Source: Pelagibacterales bacterium SAG-MED39
GTDB taxonomy: Bacteria; Pseudomonadota; Alphaproteobacteria; Pelagibacterales; Pelagibacteraceae
DNA: 64,000 bases
Reading direction: 5' to 3'
Assembly: GCA_014653625.1 (NCBI GenBank)
Contig: JACWEI010000004.1
Span: 1-64,000 of the forward strand
Below the pieces are notes generated by a model. That model was not told the origin of the DNA. It ran no database searches and saw only the letters and a program-made list of their open reading frames with translations. The translations under genes were made by a program, and so were the position numbers. Every line of letters starts with the position of its first letter. Position 1 is the first letter of the stretch. Shown piece after piece: positions 13,501-40,102 of the stretch.

Positions 13501-13981
13501 TTTAAATGACACAAACATAGCTGCAACTTTATTGAAAGTCCAAGAAAGAAAAACTGCCAAAGGTAATTCCTATGCTGTTCTTAAATTAACAGATTTAACT
13601 AGTGTATTCGAACTTTTTATTTTTTCTGATATTTTAGAATTAAATAGAGAAATATTGAAAGAAGGAAGTTCAATAATTTTAACTCTAATCAAATCAATAT
13701 CTAATGATGAAAATAGATTAAAAAGAATTAATGTTCAAAAAATTGCTTCTCTTAAAGATTTATTAAATAAACCGATTAATGAAGTAATCTTTAATTTAAA
13801 ATCTGTTAAAGAATTACAAGAAATATCTAAAATTTTATTAAAAAAGGGAGATACAACTGTAAAAATAAAATTAACCGATAAAGACAATAATTTAAATTTT
13901 CACTTAGAAAATAAGAGAAATATTGATCGGAAAACCGTAAATTTATTAAGAAATAAGGAAATATCGGCAATAATTAATTAA
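10565..13981 (+). CDS. dnaE: DNA polymerase III alpha subunit
   Basis: Replicative polymerase catalytic subunit. At 1138 aa it is close to the DnaE1 norm. It has an N-terminal PHP domain (HLKIHSQYSICEGA), the polymerase palm motifs GPGRGSGAGSLVAW and PDFDIDFCEEKRD with catalytic aspartates, RPGPM and FNKSHAAAYA. A helix-hairpin-helix and an OB-fold region (ATLLKVQERKTAKGNSYAVL) lie toward the C-terminus. It is the last gene of the long nuo-to-dnaE co-directional run. The 129-nt gap after it holds the rpsB promoter and leader. Confidence 0.97.
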   Translation: MAESEIQNFNHLKIHSQYSICEGAIKIDDLKDFSKENKIRSLALCDTANLCGALEFAEKISKVGTQPIIGTQINFKYGDTVGLLPLYALNEKGYKNIIELSSLSYLKNDKLSEPHLDFEELLNKNIGVSLFSGTAQGFFGQLFDKGKFIEIKELYSRLKSKFKDRFYIEIQRHGDQNEVAFEKFNLKKSTELEIALIATNETFYISKVMHEAHDALICIKNKTYINEEKRTKFSDQHYLKSNSEMSDLFADIPEALENNYHFPIRCNFKPSFSKPILPNISSEEDGNADVILKKNSLEGLKEKFKKIFNIEFKKLETNENYLKYKDRLDHELDIIIEMKYASYFLIVSDYIKWAKDNDIPVGPGRGSGAGSLVAWCLSITDVDPIKFNLIFERFLNPDRISMPDFDIDFCEEKRDLVFEYLTKKYKESVAHIITFGKLKARMVIRDVGRVLGLPYGFVDSISKMIPFDPSRPQNLTECIGSEPRLQKLIKEDPRVKKLTDLSLKLEGLNRNVATHAAGVVIADKRLTEIVPLYKDATADLLLPSTQFDMYSAENAGLIKFDFLGLKTLTVINNTQKLIRKINKSFNIENINFEDQKVFELLSSGKTVGLFQIESAGMREALVQMKPNHIEDIIALVALYRPGPMSNIPTYNDCKNGKQTPDYLHPLLEDILKPTYGVIIYQEQVMQIAQKLSGFTAGQADILRRAMGKKKRAELEKQKQNFIAGAVKNGISKDIAAGIFLKIEPFAEYGFNKSHAAAYAIISYQTAFLKTYYPKQFIAASMTMDISNQNKLSEFYEELKRLNVQTIRPDINSCFADFKTVEEKFYYALGGIKAVGYEAISNIVNERLKNGNFESITDFLNRVNPKDINKLQLEGLVKAGAFDKLYPNRQSLFNSIPNFITKSKNIFENKSANQIDLFDDNEEQENEMIIKIDDWGFEERLTKEFEAVGFFVSDHPLNQYKEVFDDYNIMDYQGFNNNDDLNDTNIAATLLKVQERKTAKGNSYAVLKLTDLTSVFELFIFSDILELNREILKEGSSIILTLIKSISNDENRLKRINVQKIASLKDLLNKPINEVIFNLKSVKELQEISKILLKKGDTTVKIKLTDKDNNLNFHLENKRNIDRKTVNLLRNKEISAIIN

Positions 13982-13997
13982 TTTTTACTTGTTAATT

Positions 13998-14026
13998 TTG
14001 TGAAACATTTGTAAATAAGCTTTAAT
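13998..14026 (+). promoter_or_regulatory. Predicted sigma-70-type promoter for rpsB-tsf
   Basis: TTGTGA at 13998-14003, a 17-bp spacer and TTTAAT at 14021-14026 form a good -35/-10 pair. The predicted start near 14033 falls just upstream of the structured S2 leader, giving a leader of roughly 78 nt. This is pattern-based only, and AT-rich sequence gives chance matches. Confidence 0.4.
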
Positions 14027-14041
14027 TTTAATTAACACGCA

Positions 14042-14110
14042 CACAGTTGTTGGTTTTATACCTCCGGTCCTTAATTGGAAATTACTGTGGTGGCTTAACC
14101 GGGAATAAAT
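14042..14110 (+). ncRNA. S2 (rpsB) leader RNA, candidate autoregulatory pseudoknot
   Basis: This leader is GC-richer than its surroundings. CACAG (14042-14046) can pair with CTGTG (14085-14089). CCGGT inside that loop (14064-14068) is exactly complementary to ACCGG (14098-14102), which lies beyond the stem and ends 8 nt before the rpsB ATG. The two helices interleave, so they form an H-type pseudoknot that would cover the ribosome-binding region. Cis-regulatory RNAs before the S2 gene have been described in 'Ca. Pelagibacter ubique', and autoregulation by excess S2 is the usual model. The structure is read directly from the bases; binding by S2 is inference. Confidence 0.8.
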
Positions 14111-14920
14111 ATGAAGATACCTAATGTTACAATACAACAATTATTAGAAGCAGGAGTACATCTTGGGCATAAAACTTTAAGGTGGAATCCAAAAATGAAA
14201 AGATACATTTTTGGCAAAAGAGACTCAATACATATTATAGATTTAACACAAACGCTTGAGTTAACAAAAGTTGCTCTTGAAAAAGTTTATAATACGATTT
14301 CAACCAATGGAAAAATTTTATTTGTATCTACAAAAAAGCAAGCCTCAGAAGCAATTGCTGAGGTAGCAAAAGAAACAGATCAATATTTCGTAAACTATAG
14401 ATGGTTGGGTGGAATGTTGACTAATTGGGGGACAATATCTGGATCTATAAAAAAGATGAAAAAATATGAAGCAGATCTTGTTTCTGAAAATAGAGGTTTT
14501 ACAAAAAAAGAACTTCTTAAGATGAGTGTGAAAAAAGATAAACTTCAAAGATCATTAGGTGGTATAGCGGATATGAAAAAAACACCTGACTTAGTATTTA
14601 TAATAGACACAAATTATGAGTCATTGGCAATTCAAGAGTCAGTTAAATTAGGTATTCCAATTATTGCAATCTTAGACAGCAACTCTAATCCAGATGGAAT
14701 TGACTACCCAATACCTGGCAATGATGATGCAAGAAGATCTATAGATCTTTATTGTAATCTCGTTAAAGAGACTATTTTATCTGCAAAAAAAGTAGCACCA
14801 TCGTTAGAGGTTAAAAAATCCACAGAAAAAAAAGAAAAAACTGATAAGTCGAAAACTGTTGCTGAAATTGACAGAGATAAATTAGAAAATAAATTTTCTA
14901 AAAAGGAGAAGCTGAACTAA
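14111..14920 (+). CDS. rpsB: 30S ribosomal protein S2
   Basis: Ribosomal small-subunit protein. In 269 aa it shows [24 protein letters not shown] at the N-terminus, [12 protein letters not shown] and the [14 protein letters not shown] segment. A charged, Lys/Glu-rich tail of about 40 residues follows the core, common in alphaproteobacterial S2. It is preceded by the pseudoknot leader described separately and followed 2 nt later by tsf. Confidence 0.98.
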
Positions 14921-14922
14921 TT

Positions 14923-15774
14923 ATGAGTGATATAGAAAAAATAAAAAAACTTAGGGGAGCAACAGGAGCAGGTTTTAAAGATTGTAATCTAGCAATAAAA
15001 GAGTCAGGTGGAGATTTAGATAAAGCTGTTGAAATTTTAAGAGTTAAAGGCATTTCAAAAGCTTCAAAAAAAATGTCAAGAGATGCAAAAGAAGGAGTTG
15101 TTGCAATTAGTGGAGATTACAAAAAGACCTCAATAATTGAGGTAAATTGTGAGACAGATTTTGTTGCTAAAAATGATGATTTTATAAATTTTGTTAAAGA
15201 ATTAAGTGAAATCAATAATCATATCAATTCAAACATTGAAGACCTTAAAAAATCTAAAATGAAAAATAATGAAACTGTAGAAAATAATCTAGTAGCACTT
15301 ATAGCAAAAATTGGAGAAAAAATTACTATAGGCAAGGCCAAAACTATCTCTAACTCATCTTCTATTAATTACCAATATTTACATACAGTGGTAAAAGATA
15401 ATTTAGCTAAATTAGCTGTAGTTGTTTCTATAGAAACAAAAGATAAATCTGATACAGTAAATAATTTTGGAAAACAATTATCTATGCATATAGCGGCATC
15501 AAATCCTTTGGCATTAGAGTCTAGTCTAATTGATAAAACTATAATTGAGAAAGAACAGGAGCTTGTCACTGAAGAACTCAGAAATTCAGGTAAACCCGAA
15601 GATATTGCTAAAAAAATAAGTTTAGGTAAAATGAATAAGTTTAAAGAAGAAAATGCTCTTTTAACTCAAGCTTGGGTAATGGAACCAAAAAAGAAAGTTC
15701 AAGATGTTTTAAAAGAATTGGCAATTAATGATTTAAAAATTAAGGAGTTCAGTAGAATTAAGATAGGCGAATAA
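14923..15774 (+). CDS. tsf: Elongation factor Ts
   Basis: Guanine nucleotide exchange factor for EF-Tu. In 283 aa the N-terminal UBA-like domain ([22 protein letters not shown]) and the diagnostic [12 protein letters not shown] are present, followed by the two core domains ([13 protein letters not shown]). It ends directly against frr with no gap. The UMP kinase gene pyrH that usually sits between tsf and frr is not there. Confidence 0.97.
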
Positions 15775-16326
15775 ATGTTTGATGAAAAATCACATAGCCT
15801 TAAAATGGATAAAGCAATTGACGTATTTTCTAAAGAATTAGCGTCGTTGAGAACTGGTAGAGCAAATTCTGCAATGTTAGATCTAGTAAAAGTTGACGTT
15901 TACGGTCAACAAATGCCAATTAATCAAGTTGGAAGTATTACAACCCCAGAACCAAGGATGATAAATATTCAAGTTTGGGATCAAAATAATGTTTCTCTAG
16001 TTGATGCTGCTATAAAAAAATCTGAACTTGGATTAAATCCACAAATTGATGGTCAATTAATAAGGCTGCCAGTTCCAGAATTAAATGAGGAAAGAAGAAT
16101 TGAATTAAAAAAATTAATCAAAACTATGGGGGAAAAATGTAAAATCTCTATTAGAAATGTGCGTAGAGATGCGAATGAAGAGTTAAAAAAACTTTTAAAA
16201 TCAAAAGAAATTGGTGAAGATGAAGAAAAATCTTTTGAAAAAAATGTACAGAATATAACTGACAAACACATCCAAACAGTTGATGAAAAAGTTGCTTCAA
16301 AAGAAAAAGAAATAATGACAATATGA
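15775..16326 (+). CDS. frr: Ribosome recycling factor
   Basis: Splits post-termination ribosomes together with EF-G. The length of 183 aa is normal. It begins with the three-helix-bundle strand containing ELASLRTGRANSAMLDLV, followed by VDVYGQQMPINQVGSI, LIRLPVPELNEERRIEL and the long C-terminal helices. The ATG follows the tsf TAA with no spacing. The end overlaps uppS by 4 nt (ATGA). Confidence 0.98.
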   Translation: MFDEKSHSLKMDKAIDVFSKELASLRTGRANSAMLDLVKVDVYGQQMPINQVGSITTPEPRMINIQVWDQNNVSLVDAAIKKSELGLNPQIDGQLIRLPVPELNEERRIELKKLIKTMGEKCKISIRNVRRDANEELKKLLKSKEIGEDEEKSFEKNVQNITDKHIQTVDEKVASKEKEIMTI

Positions 16327-17649: not shown

Positions 17650-18813
17650 ATGAAAAAAAAAATTGTTATATTAGGGTCAACTGGATCAATTGGTAAGTCA
17701 ACAATAGATATCATTAAAAAAGACAAATCTAAATTTGAAATTATTCTTTTAACAACAAATAAAAATATTAAAGAGTTACACAAACAAGCAAAAATTTTTA
17801 ACGTAAAAAATTTAATAATATCAGATTTGGATAAATATTATCTTTACAAAAAAAAAAATAGAAATAAAAAAATAAGAATATTTAACAACTTTCAAAAATT
17901 AGATCAAATAATAAAAAAAAAAGTTGATTATACTATGAGCTCAATTTCTGGTTTAGATGGACTAGAGCCGACATTGAAGTTAATAAAGAAAACAAAAACT
18001 ATCGCAATAGCAAATAAAGAAAGCATAATTTGTGGTTGGGATCTGATCCAAAAAAAATTAAAAAAACATAAGACTAGTTTCATTCCTGTTGACTCCGAGC
18101 ATTTTTCAATTTGGTCATTAATCAAAAAACAAAATTACAGTTTAATAGATAAAATATATATCACAGCATCGGGAGGTCCTTTTTTAAAATGGCCAGTAAA
18201 AAAAATTATGAGTGCAACACCATCTAAAGCTTTAAAACATCCAAATTGGTCAATGGGAAAAAAAATATCTATTGATTCTGCTACCATGATGAATAAAGTT
18301 TTTGAAGTAATTGAAACTCAAAAAATTTTTAATTTGCCAAAATCTAAGATAAAAATCTTGATACATGATAAATCTTACATCCATGCAATAGTTAAATTTA
18401 AAAATGGTATAATAAAGTTATTAGCACATGAAACAAATATGAAAATTCCAATCTTTAATTCTATTTATCACAATACTAATAAATCAATCAAATCTAAAAA
18501 TTTAGATATAAAAAAATTAAATAATCTGAATTTAAAAAACGTTGATACTAAAAGATTTTCCCTTACAAAAATTTTGAAAATCATTCCTAATAAAAATACT
18601 CTATTTGAAACAGTAATTATTAGTGCTAATGATGAGTTAGTAAATTTATTTTTAAAGAATAAAATTTCATATTCAGAACTTCATAAAAAATTATTATCAA
18701 TAATTAATTTTAAAGTATTTAAAGCTTATAAAAATAAAAAACCTTTAAATATAGGTCAAATAAGCAGGTTAAATAACTCTGTAAGATTGAAAATTAGGGA
18801 GTTATGTATATAA
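17650..18813 (+). CDS. dxr: 1-deoxy-D-xylulose 5-phosphate reductoisomerase
   Basis: Committed step of the MEP isoprenoid pathway, reducing DXP to MEP with NADPH. In 387 aa it shows the nucleotide-binding VILGSTGSIGKSTIDII at the N-terminus, IANKESIICGW, PVDSEHFSIW, ITASGGPF and the metal/substrate segment HPNWSMGKKISIDSATMMNK. IspD and IspF of the same pathway are encoded at 40598-41707 as a fusion. The rseP protease gene that commonly follows dxr is absent; bamA comes next. Confidence 0.97.
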   Translation: MKKKIVILGSTGSIGKSTIDIIKKDKSKFEIILLTTNKNIKELHKQAKIFNVKNLIISDLDKYYLYKKKNRNKKIRIFNNFQKLDQIIKKKVDYTMSSISGLDGLEPTLKLIKKTKTIAIANKESIICGWDLIQKKLKKHKTSFIPVDSEHFSIWSLIKKQNYSLIDKIYITASGGPFLKWPVKKIMSATPSKALKHPNWSMGKKISIDSATMMNKVFEVIETQKIFNLPKSKIKILIHDKSYIHAIVKFKNGIIKLLAHETNMKIPIFNSIYHNTNKSIKSKNLDIKKLNNLNLKNVDTKRFSLTKILKIIPNKNTLFETVIISANDELVNLFLKNKISYSELHKKLLSIINFKVFKAYKNKKPLNIGQISRLNNSVRLKIRELCI

Positions 18814-18821
18814 GGTCATTT

Positions 18822-21056
18822 ATGAATAAAGTTCTTCTATTTATAGTCTTGCTGTTCTTAATGATAACAAATTCATACGCTGAAATCATAAAAAAAATAG
18901 AAATAGTTGGAAATGATAGAGTTTCCAATGCAACAATTCTTAACTTTAGCGAATTAAAAAAAGGAGATGATGTTTCATTGTCAAACATAAATAAGTCCCT
19001 TAAGTCTCTCTATGATACAAATTTTTTTGAGGATGTAAGTATTAATATAGAAAACAACTTATTAACGATTAAAGTTAAAGAATATGCTGTCATTCAAGTA
19101 ATTAGTTTCGGAGGTATAAAAAGAAAAGAAACTATTAAAGAATTAAAAGAACAAATTTCTTTAAAAGAAAAAAACCCATTTAATGAGTCTTTAATTAAGA
19201 ATGATTTAAACAAAATCTTAAATATTCTCAAATCATCTGGTTTTTACTTTGCTGAAGCAACAGTCCAGGTAGAAGAAAACCAAAATAATACAATTAATAT
19301 TATCTATAATGTAAATATGGGTGAAAAAGCTACTATTAAGGAAATTCAATTTATTGGGGATAAAAAATATAAAAAAAGAAAGTTAAGTGGCATAATAACA
19401 TCAGAAGAAAATAAATTTTGGAAAATAATTTCAAAAGGTAAGTACTTAAATATTTCAAGAATCAATTTAGATAAACGTTTACTTAAGAATTTTTATTTGA
19501 ATAAAGGTTATTATCAAGTTGAAATAAATGATGCTTATTCTAAAATTATAGATAATGAAAATTTTGTACTCACCTTTAATATAAATGCGGGTAAAAAATT
19601 TTTATTCGGCGACATGAAGCTTAATTTACCTGATGATTTCGATCCCAACAAATTTACAAAACTGAATAAAATTTTTAAAAAAAGTAAAAATGAAACTTAT
19701 AGTTTCAACAAAATTGAAGATATTCTTGATGAAATTGAAAATATAGCACTTTTTGAAAATTATGAATTTATAGACGCAAAGGTCATAGAAACAATAACTG
19801 ATAATAGAGTTAATTTTACTTTTAATATAGAAGAGTCAGCAAAAGTTTACGTAGAGAAAATAAATATTTTTGGAAACAATATAACCTCAGAGGAGTTTAT
19901 TAGAGATAATTTACTTGTAGATGAGGGAGATCCATTTAATAAAATTCTTCATACTAAATCAATCAATAATTTAAAATCTAAAGGATTATTTTCAAAAGTT
20001 CAAACAGATATAGTTGATACTGATGATGAGGGAAAAAAAATTGTAAATATTTCTTTTGAAGAAAAAGCAACAGGGGAAATATCCGCTAGTGCTGGTGTTG
20101 GTACTGATGGAACAAGTTTTGGAGTTGGTATTAAAGAAAAAAATTTTAATGGTAAGGGTATTGAATTAGAGGCAAATGTTGCACTTTCAGATGACGCTAT
20201 TAGAGGTTTGTTTTATTACACCCATCCTAATTTTGCATACTCTGATAGGTCTTTAACCACGTCTCTAGAAAGTACTGTCACTGATAAATTAACTGATAGT
20301 GGTTATAAAAGTACATTGAATGCTGTCGGTCTAGGTACAAGATATGAGCAATTCGATAATTTATTTTTTGCCCCATCTATATCTATTTCAGATGAAACGA
20401 TTGAAACAACAAGTACCGCTTCTGCAGCATATAAAAAACAAGAAGGTTCTTATTTTGATAGTATTTTTAACTATTCTTTAACCTATGATAAACGAAACTT
20501 AAAATTCCAACCTACAGATGGTTTTGTTAGTAGATGGTCTCAAAATATTCCGATTTTTTCTAATACACCCGCTATTACTAATGGATATACATTTACAGCT
20601 TATAGTGAACCAGTGGACGATATGGTTATTTCAACTGGTATTTATACTGCAGCAGTTAATTCATTAAGTGATGATGATGTTAGAGTTTCTCAAAGATTAT
20701 ATGCTCCATCTTCAAGACTAAGAGGTTTTAAATCAGGATCTGTAGGCCCTAAAGATGGAAGTGATTTTGTTGGAGGAAACTATATAGCAACTTTTAACAC
20801 TTCATCAACAATTCCTTACATATTACAAACTATGGAAAGTGTTGATTTAAAAGTATTTCTTGATGTTGGTAATGTATGGGGTGTTGATTATTCAAGCTCT
20901 ATAGATGATAGTAATAAAATTAGGTCTTCAAGTGGAATAGCTCTTGAAATTCTTTCTCCAGTAGGACCTTTATCTTTTTCTTATGCTCAGGTTCTTTCTA
21001 AAGCATCGACAGATCAAACTGAATCTTTTAAATTCCAATTAGGAACAACTTTTTAA
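18822..21056 (+). CDS. bamA: Outer membrane protein assembly factor BamA
   Basis: Central barrel of the BAM complex that inserts beta-barrel proteins into the outer membrane. I chose ATG 18822 over the track's 18804. It directly begins a standard signal peptide (MNKVLLFIVLLFLMITNSYA), has AAGG upstream at good spacing, and avoids overlapping dxr. The 744 aa protein has about five POTRA repeats (residues 20-420) and a C-terminal 16-strand barrel with the RLRGF motif (SSRLRGFKSGS). It ends in Phe (QLGTTF), the typical beta-signal. It heads the bamA-skp-fabZ-lpx run. Confidence 0.95.
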   Translation: MNKVLLFIVLLFLMITNSYAEIIKKIEIVGNDRVSNATILNFSELKKGDDVSLSNINKSLKSLYDTNFFEDVSINIENNLLTIKVKEYAVIQVISFGGIKRKETIKELKEQISLKEKNPFNESLIKNDLNKILNILKSSGFYFAEATVQVEENQNNTINIIYNVNMGEKATIKEIQFIGDKKYKKRKLSGIITSEENKFWKIISKGKYLNISRINLDKRLLKNFYLNKGYYQVEINDAYSKIIDNENFVLTFNINAGKKFLFGDMKLNLPDDFDPNKFTKLNKIFKKSKNETYSFNKIEDILDEIENIALFENYEFIDAKVIETITDNRVNFTFNIEESAKVYVEKINIFGNNITSEEFIRDNLLVDEGDPFNKILHTKSINNLKSKGLFSKVQTDIVDTDDEGKKIVNISFEEKATGEISASAGVGTDGTSFGVGIKEKNFNGKGIELEANVALSDDAIRGLFYYTHPNFAYSDRSLTTSLESTVTDKLTDSGYKSTLNAVGLGTRYEQFDNLFFAPSISISDETIETTSTASAAYKKQEGSYFDSIFNYSLTYDKRNLKFQPTDGFVSRWSQNIPIFSNTPAITNGYTFTAYSEPVDDMVISTGIYTAAVNSLSDDDVRVSQRLYAPSSRLRGFKSGSVGPKDGSDFVGGNYIATFNTSSTIPYILQTMESVDLKVFLDVGNVWGVDYSSSIDDSNKIRSSSGIALEILSPVGPLSFSYAQVLSKASTDQTESFKFQLGTTF

Positions 21057-37957: not shown

Positions 37958-38265
37958 TGCTCAAAAAATTAAAAAAAAACTACTTTCTATTAATATCAAC
38001 ATTCTTGATTTTATATTTCTTTTTTAACCTTTTGTCTGGTCAAAGAGGTCTTATTTCATACTTTGAAAAAAAAAAAATTTTAAACAATCTTCAAAATGAG
38101 GAATTATTACTAGTAAGTCAAATTAAAGACTTGGATTTTAAAAATTCGCTATTAAGTGATAATTTAGATCTAGATTATATAGAAATCTTGATCAGAGAAA
38201 GATTTTTATTTGGAAAAAAAAATGAGACGATTTATATAATTAAAAGCAATGAAGCAAAAAATTAA
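37957..38265 (+). CDS. ftsB: Septum formation initiator (FtsB/DivIC family)
   Basis: Small bitopic cell-division protein linking the periplasmic divisome subunits. In 102 aa there is one membrane helix (about residues 9-27), then [41 protein letters not shown], a short coiled coil. The conserved [21 protein letters not shown] follows. The start is GTG 37957, sharing one base with the eno stop. In many alphaproteobacteria the pyruvate dehydrogenase genes follow; here lipA overlaps it by 17 nt. Confidence 0.85.
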
Positions 38266-39643: not shown

Positions 39644-40102
39644 TTAGATGATTCTATTGATTATTTCTAATGTCTTTTTGACTGTCATCTTTTGAACTGA
39701 TGTTCTGTTCTTAGATTTAAATAAATTTTTACTAATTATTATTTTATTTTTTTTTTTTATACCAATATAAACTAGTCCAACTGGTTTTTTTTTACTCCCT
39801 CCATTTGGGCCTGCTATACCAGTTATAGATACATTAATATTTGCTTTAGAAATTTTTGACAAATTTATTACCATATCTTTACAGCATTCGGAGCTTACAG
39901 CTCCATATTTACCAATTATGTTTTTATTAACTCCCAAAACCTTTATTTTAGATTCATTAGAATAGGTGATTAGACCTAAACTAAAAACTTTAGATGATCC
40001 ACTTATAGAAGTAATCTTACTTGCAAGCATTCCACCAGTACATGATTCAGCAAATGATATTTTTAGTTTTTTCTTAATTAATTTTTTGATTAAAGAAACC
40101 AT
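39644..40102 (-). CDS. pncC: CinA C-terminal domain protein (NMN amidohydrolase type)
   Basis: The 152 aa stand-alone CinA-C domain shows SFAESCTGGMLASKITSISGSSKVFSLGLITYSNESK at the N-terminus and SITGIAGPNGGSKKKPVGLVYIG. Members deamidate nicotinamide mononucleotide in NAD salvage. The N-terminal MoCF domain of full-length CinA is absent. It shares one base with pgpA and is convergent with coq10 across a 25-nt gap holding nothing notable. Confidence 0.88.
   Translation of the reverse strand: MVSLIKKLIKKKLKISFAESCTGGMLASKITSISGSSKVFSLGLITYSNESKIKVLGVNKNIIGKYGAVSSECCKDMVINLSKISKANINVSITGIAGPNGGSKKKPVGLVYIGIKKKNKIIISKNLFKSKNRTSVQKMTVKKTLEIINRII

Follow-up and report, generated by a model that had tools for sequence, protein, structure and literature searches.

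The window, a stretch of 64,000 nucleotides from the Pelagibacterales bacterium SAG-MED39, belongs to a Pelagibacter-type genome whose nearest named relatives are Pelagibacteraceae and Ca. Pelagibacter (best-segment identity of S2 mostly 82-91%). The leader, rpsB and tsf described here lie on the forward strand. The gene rpsB (14111-14920) encodes ribosomal protein S2 of 269 aa (TIGR01011, 310 bits, cut-off 76.3) and is followed by tsf (14923-15774), which encodes elongation factor Ts (TIGR00116, 245 bits, cut-off 104) and is the second gene of the rpsB-tsf unit. Between the upstream dnaE and rpsB lies a structured leader (14038-14102). It is located directly 5′ of rpsB with tsf next in line, which is the position of both the published rpsB motif and the E. 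coli S2 operator. Its GC content is 0.46, whereas the window as a whole has 0.27 and the upstream intergenic region (13982-14037) 0.16, in keeping with the compositional contrast pointed out in a preliminary description of this DNA. Further upstream, CTTGTT (13988-13993) and TGTAAATA (14010-14017) are placed like promoter elements, and in alignments they match CTTG and TA-rich stretches found at comparable positions in front of other alphaproteobacterial rpsB leaders; a promoter consensus scan gave no match above chance and did not pick up this pair. The same genome encodes an rpsA homologue, which scores 402 bits, under the model cut-off of 577.

The leader is closed by helix P1, recognized by nested folding, alignment and covariation. 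The 5′ arm of P1 is composed of CGC (14038-14040), a bulged A14041 and CACAGU (14042-14047), and the 3′ arm of ACUGUG (14084-14089) and GUG (14090-14092), running on into a conserved GGNGG (14089-14093). In the alignment with other Alphaproteobacteria, 44 of 48 rows have no standard pair at G14039-U14091, the middle one of the outer pairs, which may thus be a mismatch inside P1. Within P1 there are a hairpin, P2, formed by GGU (14052-14054) and ACC (14060-14062), and the weakest helix, P3, in which the 2 bp are made by CC (14069-14070) and GG (14077-14078). The P2/P3 junction supplies the strand CCGGU (14064-14068), which pairs with ACCGG (14098-14102) located 3′ of P1. The GG of this latter strand is part of the only Shine-Dalgarno (SD)-like bases near the start codon, and the 8-nt spacer that follows, GAAUAAAU (14103-14110), has no SD sequence of its own. 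A stretch within the leader, CCUCC (14061-14065), was also considered as a mimic of the anti-SD core and was dropped, as it varies among relatives. The preliminary description had depicted the region as an H-type pseudoknot made of CACAG/CTGTG (14042-14046 and 14085-14089) and CCGGT/ACCGG (14064-14068 and 14098-14102). The letters and coordinates of both helices are exact, they interleave in the a-b-a′-b′ order, and the second one leaves 8 nt to the ATG at 14111. The structure is nevertheless not a bare knot, because P2 and P3 are present inside P1, and P1 itself is longer, carrying the bulged A14041, with the conserved GGNGG in addition.

In one sequence alone, this pattern is only moderately unusual. 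When the stretch was shuffled 2000 times with its dinucleotides preserved, 51 of the products (2.6%) contained two interleaved perfect 5-bp helices with at least three G/C pairs each; of 6392 overlapping tiles covering both strands of the window, 16 did. The nested fold, computed with a program that cannot form pseudoknots, is no more stable than those of shuffled sequences (z = 0.43). Since the pattern is moderately rare and the nested fold ordinary, it is the comparison of relatives that decides.

Almost certainly, the leader is the rpsB motif as it occurs in SAR11, which Meyer et al. (2009, PMC2704228) have published from the dnaE-rpsB intergenic region of 'Ca. Pelagibacter ubique'; this agrees with the mention of S2-leader RNAs in Pelagibacter in the preliminary description. 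The motif of Ca. P. ubique consists of P1, a P2 of 3 bp, a P3 of 2 bp and a pseudoknot that joins the P2/P3 junction to sequence 3′ of P1 (PMC2704228). Here, likewise, P1 closes a P2/P3 junction and a five-pair pseudoknot connects this junction to the 3′ extension of P1. Locus, helices, helix lengths, pseudoknot and lineage are the same, and we see no structural difference. The overlap of the pseudoknot with SD-like bases observed here is unmentioned in the text of that paper.

A search with the corresponding Rfam model, RF01815, gave a significant match at 14038-14120 (29.6 bits, E = 3.6e-4 for 351 bases searched against all families), extending end-to-end over all 132 model positions. In a whole-genome search the match had E = 2.2e-4 and was the only one in the genome. 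The score falls below the RF01815 gathering score of 40 bits, which is a curation threshold and not a structural feature; an Rfam scan of the window at the gathering threshold returned only tRNAs. RF01815 matches 67 of 118 genomes of the family at E ≤ 0.001; the gathering score is attained in none of the 118, and in 48 of 190 genomes of the class. The motif is nonetheless present in every Pelagibacterales rpsB leader that we read. Thus, the Rfam threshold conceals the motif throughout the SAR11 family, and automated annotation will miss it there. The RF01815 consensus differs from the present leader in having longer P2 and P3 and an AGGAG-like stretch after the pseudoknot, the latter missing here, and Rfam types the family as an sRNA gene rather than a leader. 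We therefore file the element under the published rpsB motif, neither as a threshold match of RF01815 nor as an E. coli-type operator, since in the latter the ribosome site is reported to lie outside the operator.

Pelagibacterales leaders were collected through an S2 protein search, not an RNA search, yielding 114 distinct sequences. Across this set, 93.0% of the cells at paired positions are paired, compared with 83.0% after shuffling and 29-48% in slid registers, and 194 cells are double-changed, compared with 56 in shuffles. Seven of the nine P1 pairs and all three P2 pairs have changed on both sides; in P3, 72.8% of cells are paired and one of the two pairs shows a double change. The pseudoknot is nearly invariant and does not covary in this set. 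At each of two pairs, nine of its unpaired cells are explained by nine rows that carry AACCGG intact but are shifted by one base in the alignment, and a single row (L116) contains a true C-A mismatch. Likewise, 78 of 80 named Pelagibacter-type loci have CCGGUC together with AACCGG, and the other two (L254 and L303) have CCUGU/ACAGG, a double change from G-C to U-A. As L254 and L303 are mutual nearest relatives in the set, their change probably represents one event. Most leaders of the sister family f179 (L164-L183) have GGATG in place of the GGNGG after P1 and lack the outer CGC of P1, yet retain the pseudoknot together with the CCGGAG that overlaps it.

Outside the order, the pseudoknot is more variable. 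In an alignment of three leaders from the window's family with 45 from other Alphaproteobacteria, four of the five pseudoknot pairs display double changes; 28 of these 45 leaders were found with RF01815, whose structure line lacks the pseudoknot, and the rest by protein search. A set of 93 leaders includes other classes of Pseudomonadota, for which the strands were anchored on the alignment columns at a conserved U and A, not on complementarity, and a few misaligned leaders were scored as unpaired. At the three variable pseudoknot pairs, 259 of 279 cells hold a standard pair; 1000 shuffles, which ignore relatedness, averaged 167 such cells and never exceeded 186. The forms encountered across Pseudomonadota include AUUGU/ACAAU, GGGGU/ACCCC, CGGGU/ACCCG and CUGGU/ACCAG, a variety that does not rest on a single event. 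Counts beyond the order omit P2 and P3, whose lengths vary there. Both helices of the preliminary description hence covary across homologues, P1 within the order, and the pseudoknot in L254 and L303 as well as outside the order.

We then considered the position of the pseudoknot relative to the ribosome site. The median distance from the pseudoknot to the start codon is 8 nt in the window's family (f1; range 3-12) and 9 nt in f179, compared with 16 nt in other Alphaproteobacteria and 18 nt in other classes. A wrongly assigned start codon is an unlikely cause of the short gap, because S2 proteins of Pelagibacterales and of most other Alphaproteobacteria align with the S2 of the window from residue 1. 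In other Alphaproteobacteria, the gap of about 16 nt usually holds a free SD sequence. In contrast, the 8-nt spacer of the window (14103-14110) alone forms a duplex of only -0.3 kcal/mol with the consensus anti-SD. The 16S 3′ end of these genomes reads GGATTACCTCCTTT, with T where the search pattern had C just before ACCTCC and with the CCTCC core intact; this sequence is found at L328 (G000:C45:473-498) and at the corresponding site of four relatives. The 16S tail pairs with positions -17 to -4 at median energies of -4.3 and -6.6 kcal/mol in the two Pelagibacterales families, values that drop to about 0 once the pseudoknot strand is omitted, whereas the values for other Alphaproteobacteria are -5.6 kcal/mol with the strand and -5.4 without it. 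Without the pseudoknot strand, SD-like pairing is lost in 86 of 92 leaders of one Pelagibacterales family and 17 of 17 of the other, compared with 8 of 59 in other Alphaproteobacteria; for this comparison the strand was located by pattern, which left out some leaders of other classes and kept 43. The exceptions in f1 are five leaders with AAAGGA after the pseudoknot.

In most Pelagibacterales, therefore, SD pairing and the formed knot would be mutually exclusive. The proposal that the pseudoknot masks the rpsB start region accordingly stands in part: the AUG is in no helix, but nearly every Pelagibacterales leader has SD-like bases that overlap the pseudoknot strand, which makes masking plausible. 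It should be noted that SD pairing is weak throughout this genome (median -1.5 kcal/mol over 55 ORF starts), so the effect of the overlap on translation is uncertain and its loss under the knot may matter little. We found no prior report of the overlap in the open-access papers searched.

A 2024 review (PMC10931766) describes repression of rpsB-tsf in E. coli by free S2, which acts through the leader with the help of S1. The E. coli S2 operator (Aseev et al. 2008, as presented in PMC10931766 and PMC2704228) is likewise the leader of rpsB-tsf, and Meyer et al. group it with the Pelagibacter leader in one motif (PMC2704228). The two differ in that the SD sequence and the start codon are described as lying outside the E. 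coli operator, while here the SD-like bases overlap a pseudoknot strand and only the AUG lies outside. Furthermore, regulation by S2 is shown in E. coli, whereas for the SAR11 leader it is predicted. From the fold and the overlap, both shown in the leaders, and from the E. coli work, we infer that the SAR11 leader serves as an operator through which S2 controls rpsB-tsf autogenously, by way of a knot that would occlude the start site, and assign this reading a probability of roughly 0.65. The rpsA homologue of this genome speaks for this reading, and the RF01815 score below the gathering threshold against it. Free S2 would bind the knotted leader and stabilize the knot, and the stabilized knot would bar the 30S subunit from the start site. 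When ribosome assembly consumes S2, the knot would open and rpsB-tsf would be translated. A more specific version, in which the shortened Pelagibacterales leader, having SD-like bases as the 3′ strand of its pseudoknot, works as a direct switch between knot and ribosome unlike the E. coli leader, is put forward tentatively, at somewhat below even odds.

Alternatively, the leader could be an S2 operator that does not cover the ribosome site, with S2 and S1 acting as in E. coli, the SD sequence and AUG left free, and the short spacer resulting from genome streamlining. The E. coli case speaks for this: the ribosome site is reported to be no part of the operator, and for this reason the details of the mechanism are called unclear in the review (PMC10931766), so masking is not the established mechanism there. 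Moreover, other Alphaproteobacteria and the other classes mostly have an SD sequence that lies clear of the pseudoknot, meaning that a shared ancestral mechanism need not use masking, and the weak SD pairing in the window's genome agrees with this alternative as well. However, in both Pelagibacterales families the knot ends about 3-12 nt from the start codon and shares the SD-like bases, so that a stable knot would sit inside the ribosome footprint. Considering both sides, we regard an operator that leaves the ribosome site uncovered as unlikely, and we think that direct occlusion of this site is likelier in SAR11 than in E. coli. Control of transcript length, in which S2 or the fold would cause early termination or processing and leave a short leader RNA, has a precedent in Bordetella pertussis, where the short transcript B from the rpsB 5′ UTR was interpreted as inhibited full-length transcription (PMC3110155); it is very improbable here, given that no terminator-like site was found within 13900-14300 and that the structure stops only 8 nt short of the AUG, where a translational element would be expected to lie. 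Finally, chance pairing or conservation without structure, for instance of a protein-binding DNA site, would suit the frequency of the pattern in shuffled sequences, the ordinary stability of the nested fold and the near-invariant pseudoknot strands within the order, which alone are uninformative on pairing, but it is contradicted by P1, P2 and the pseudoknot, all of which show compensatory changes, and has a negligible probability.

The overlap in Pelagibacterales offers a simple natural case in which to ask how S2 represses its own mRNA. The positive covariation, the Rfam threshold that conceals the motif in SAR11 and the overlap are small, testable additions to the published element.

Two further observations concern the genes downstream. 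The gene for UMP kinase, pyrH, usually resides between tsf and frr, and the enzyme is essential in model bacteria. It is absent from this place in the window, where tsf (14923-15774) is immediately followed by frr (15775-16326). Among 78 sampled Pelagibacterales genomes, matches to the UMP kinase model (TIGR02075) above the cut-off were obtained in none of 66 genomes of the window's family and in 10 of 12 genomes of f179, which suggests a family-wide loss of pyrH in the former. In the f179 genomes compared, the distance from the rpsB start downstream to pyrH is about 1.6 kb (e.g. rpsB at 38102 and pyrH at 39739 in genome G414). The gene rseP (TIGR00054) is not found between dxr and bamA (17650-21056), the ORFs of which overlap. 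The window's own genome, 78% complete, has only weak rseP matches, and two near-complete relatives contain rseP-type matches above the cut-off, at about 493.5-494.6 kb (G003) and 690.5-691.6 kb (G017).
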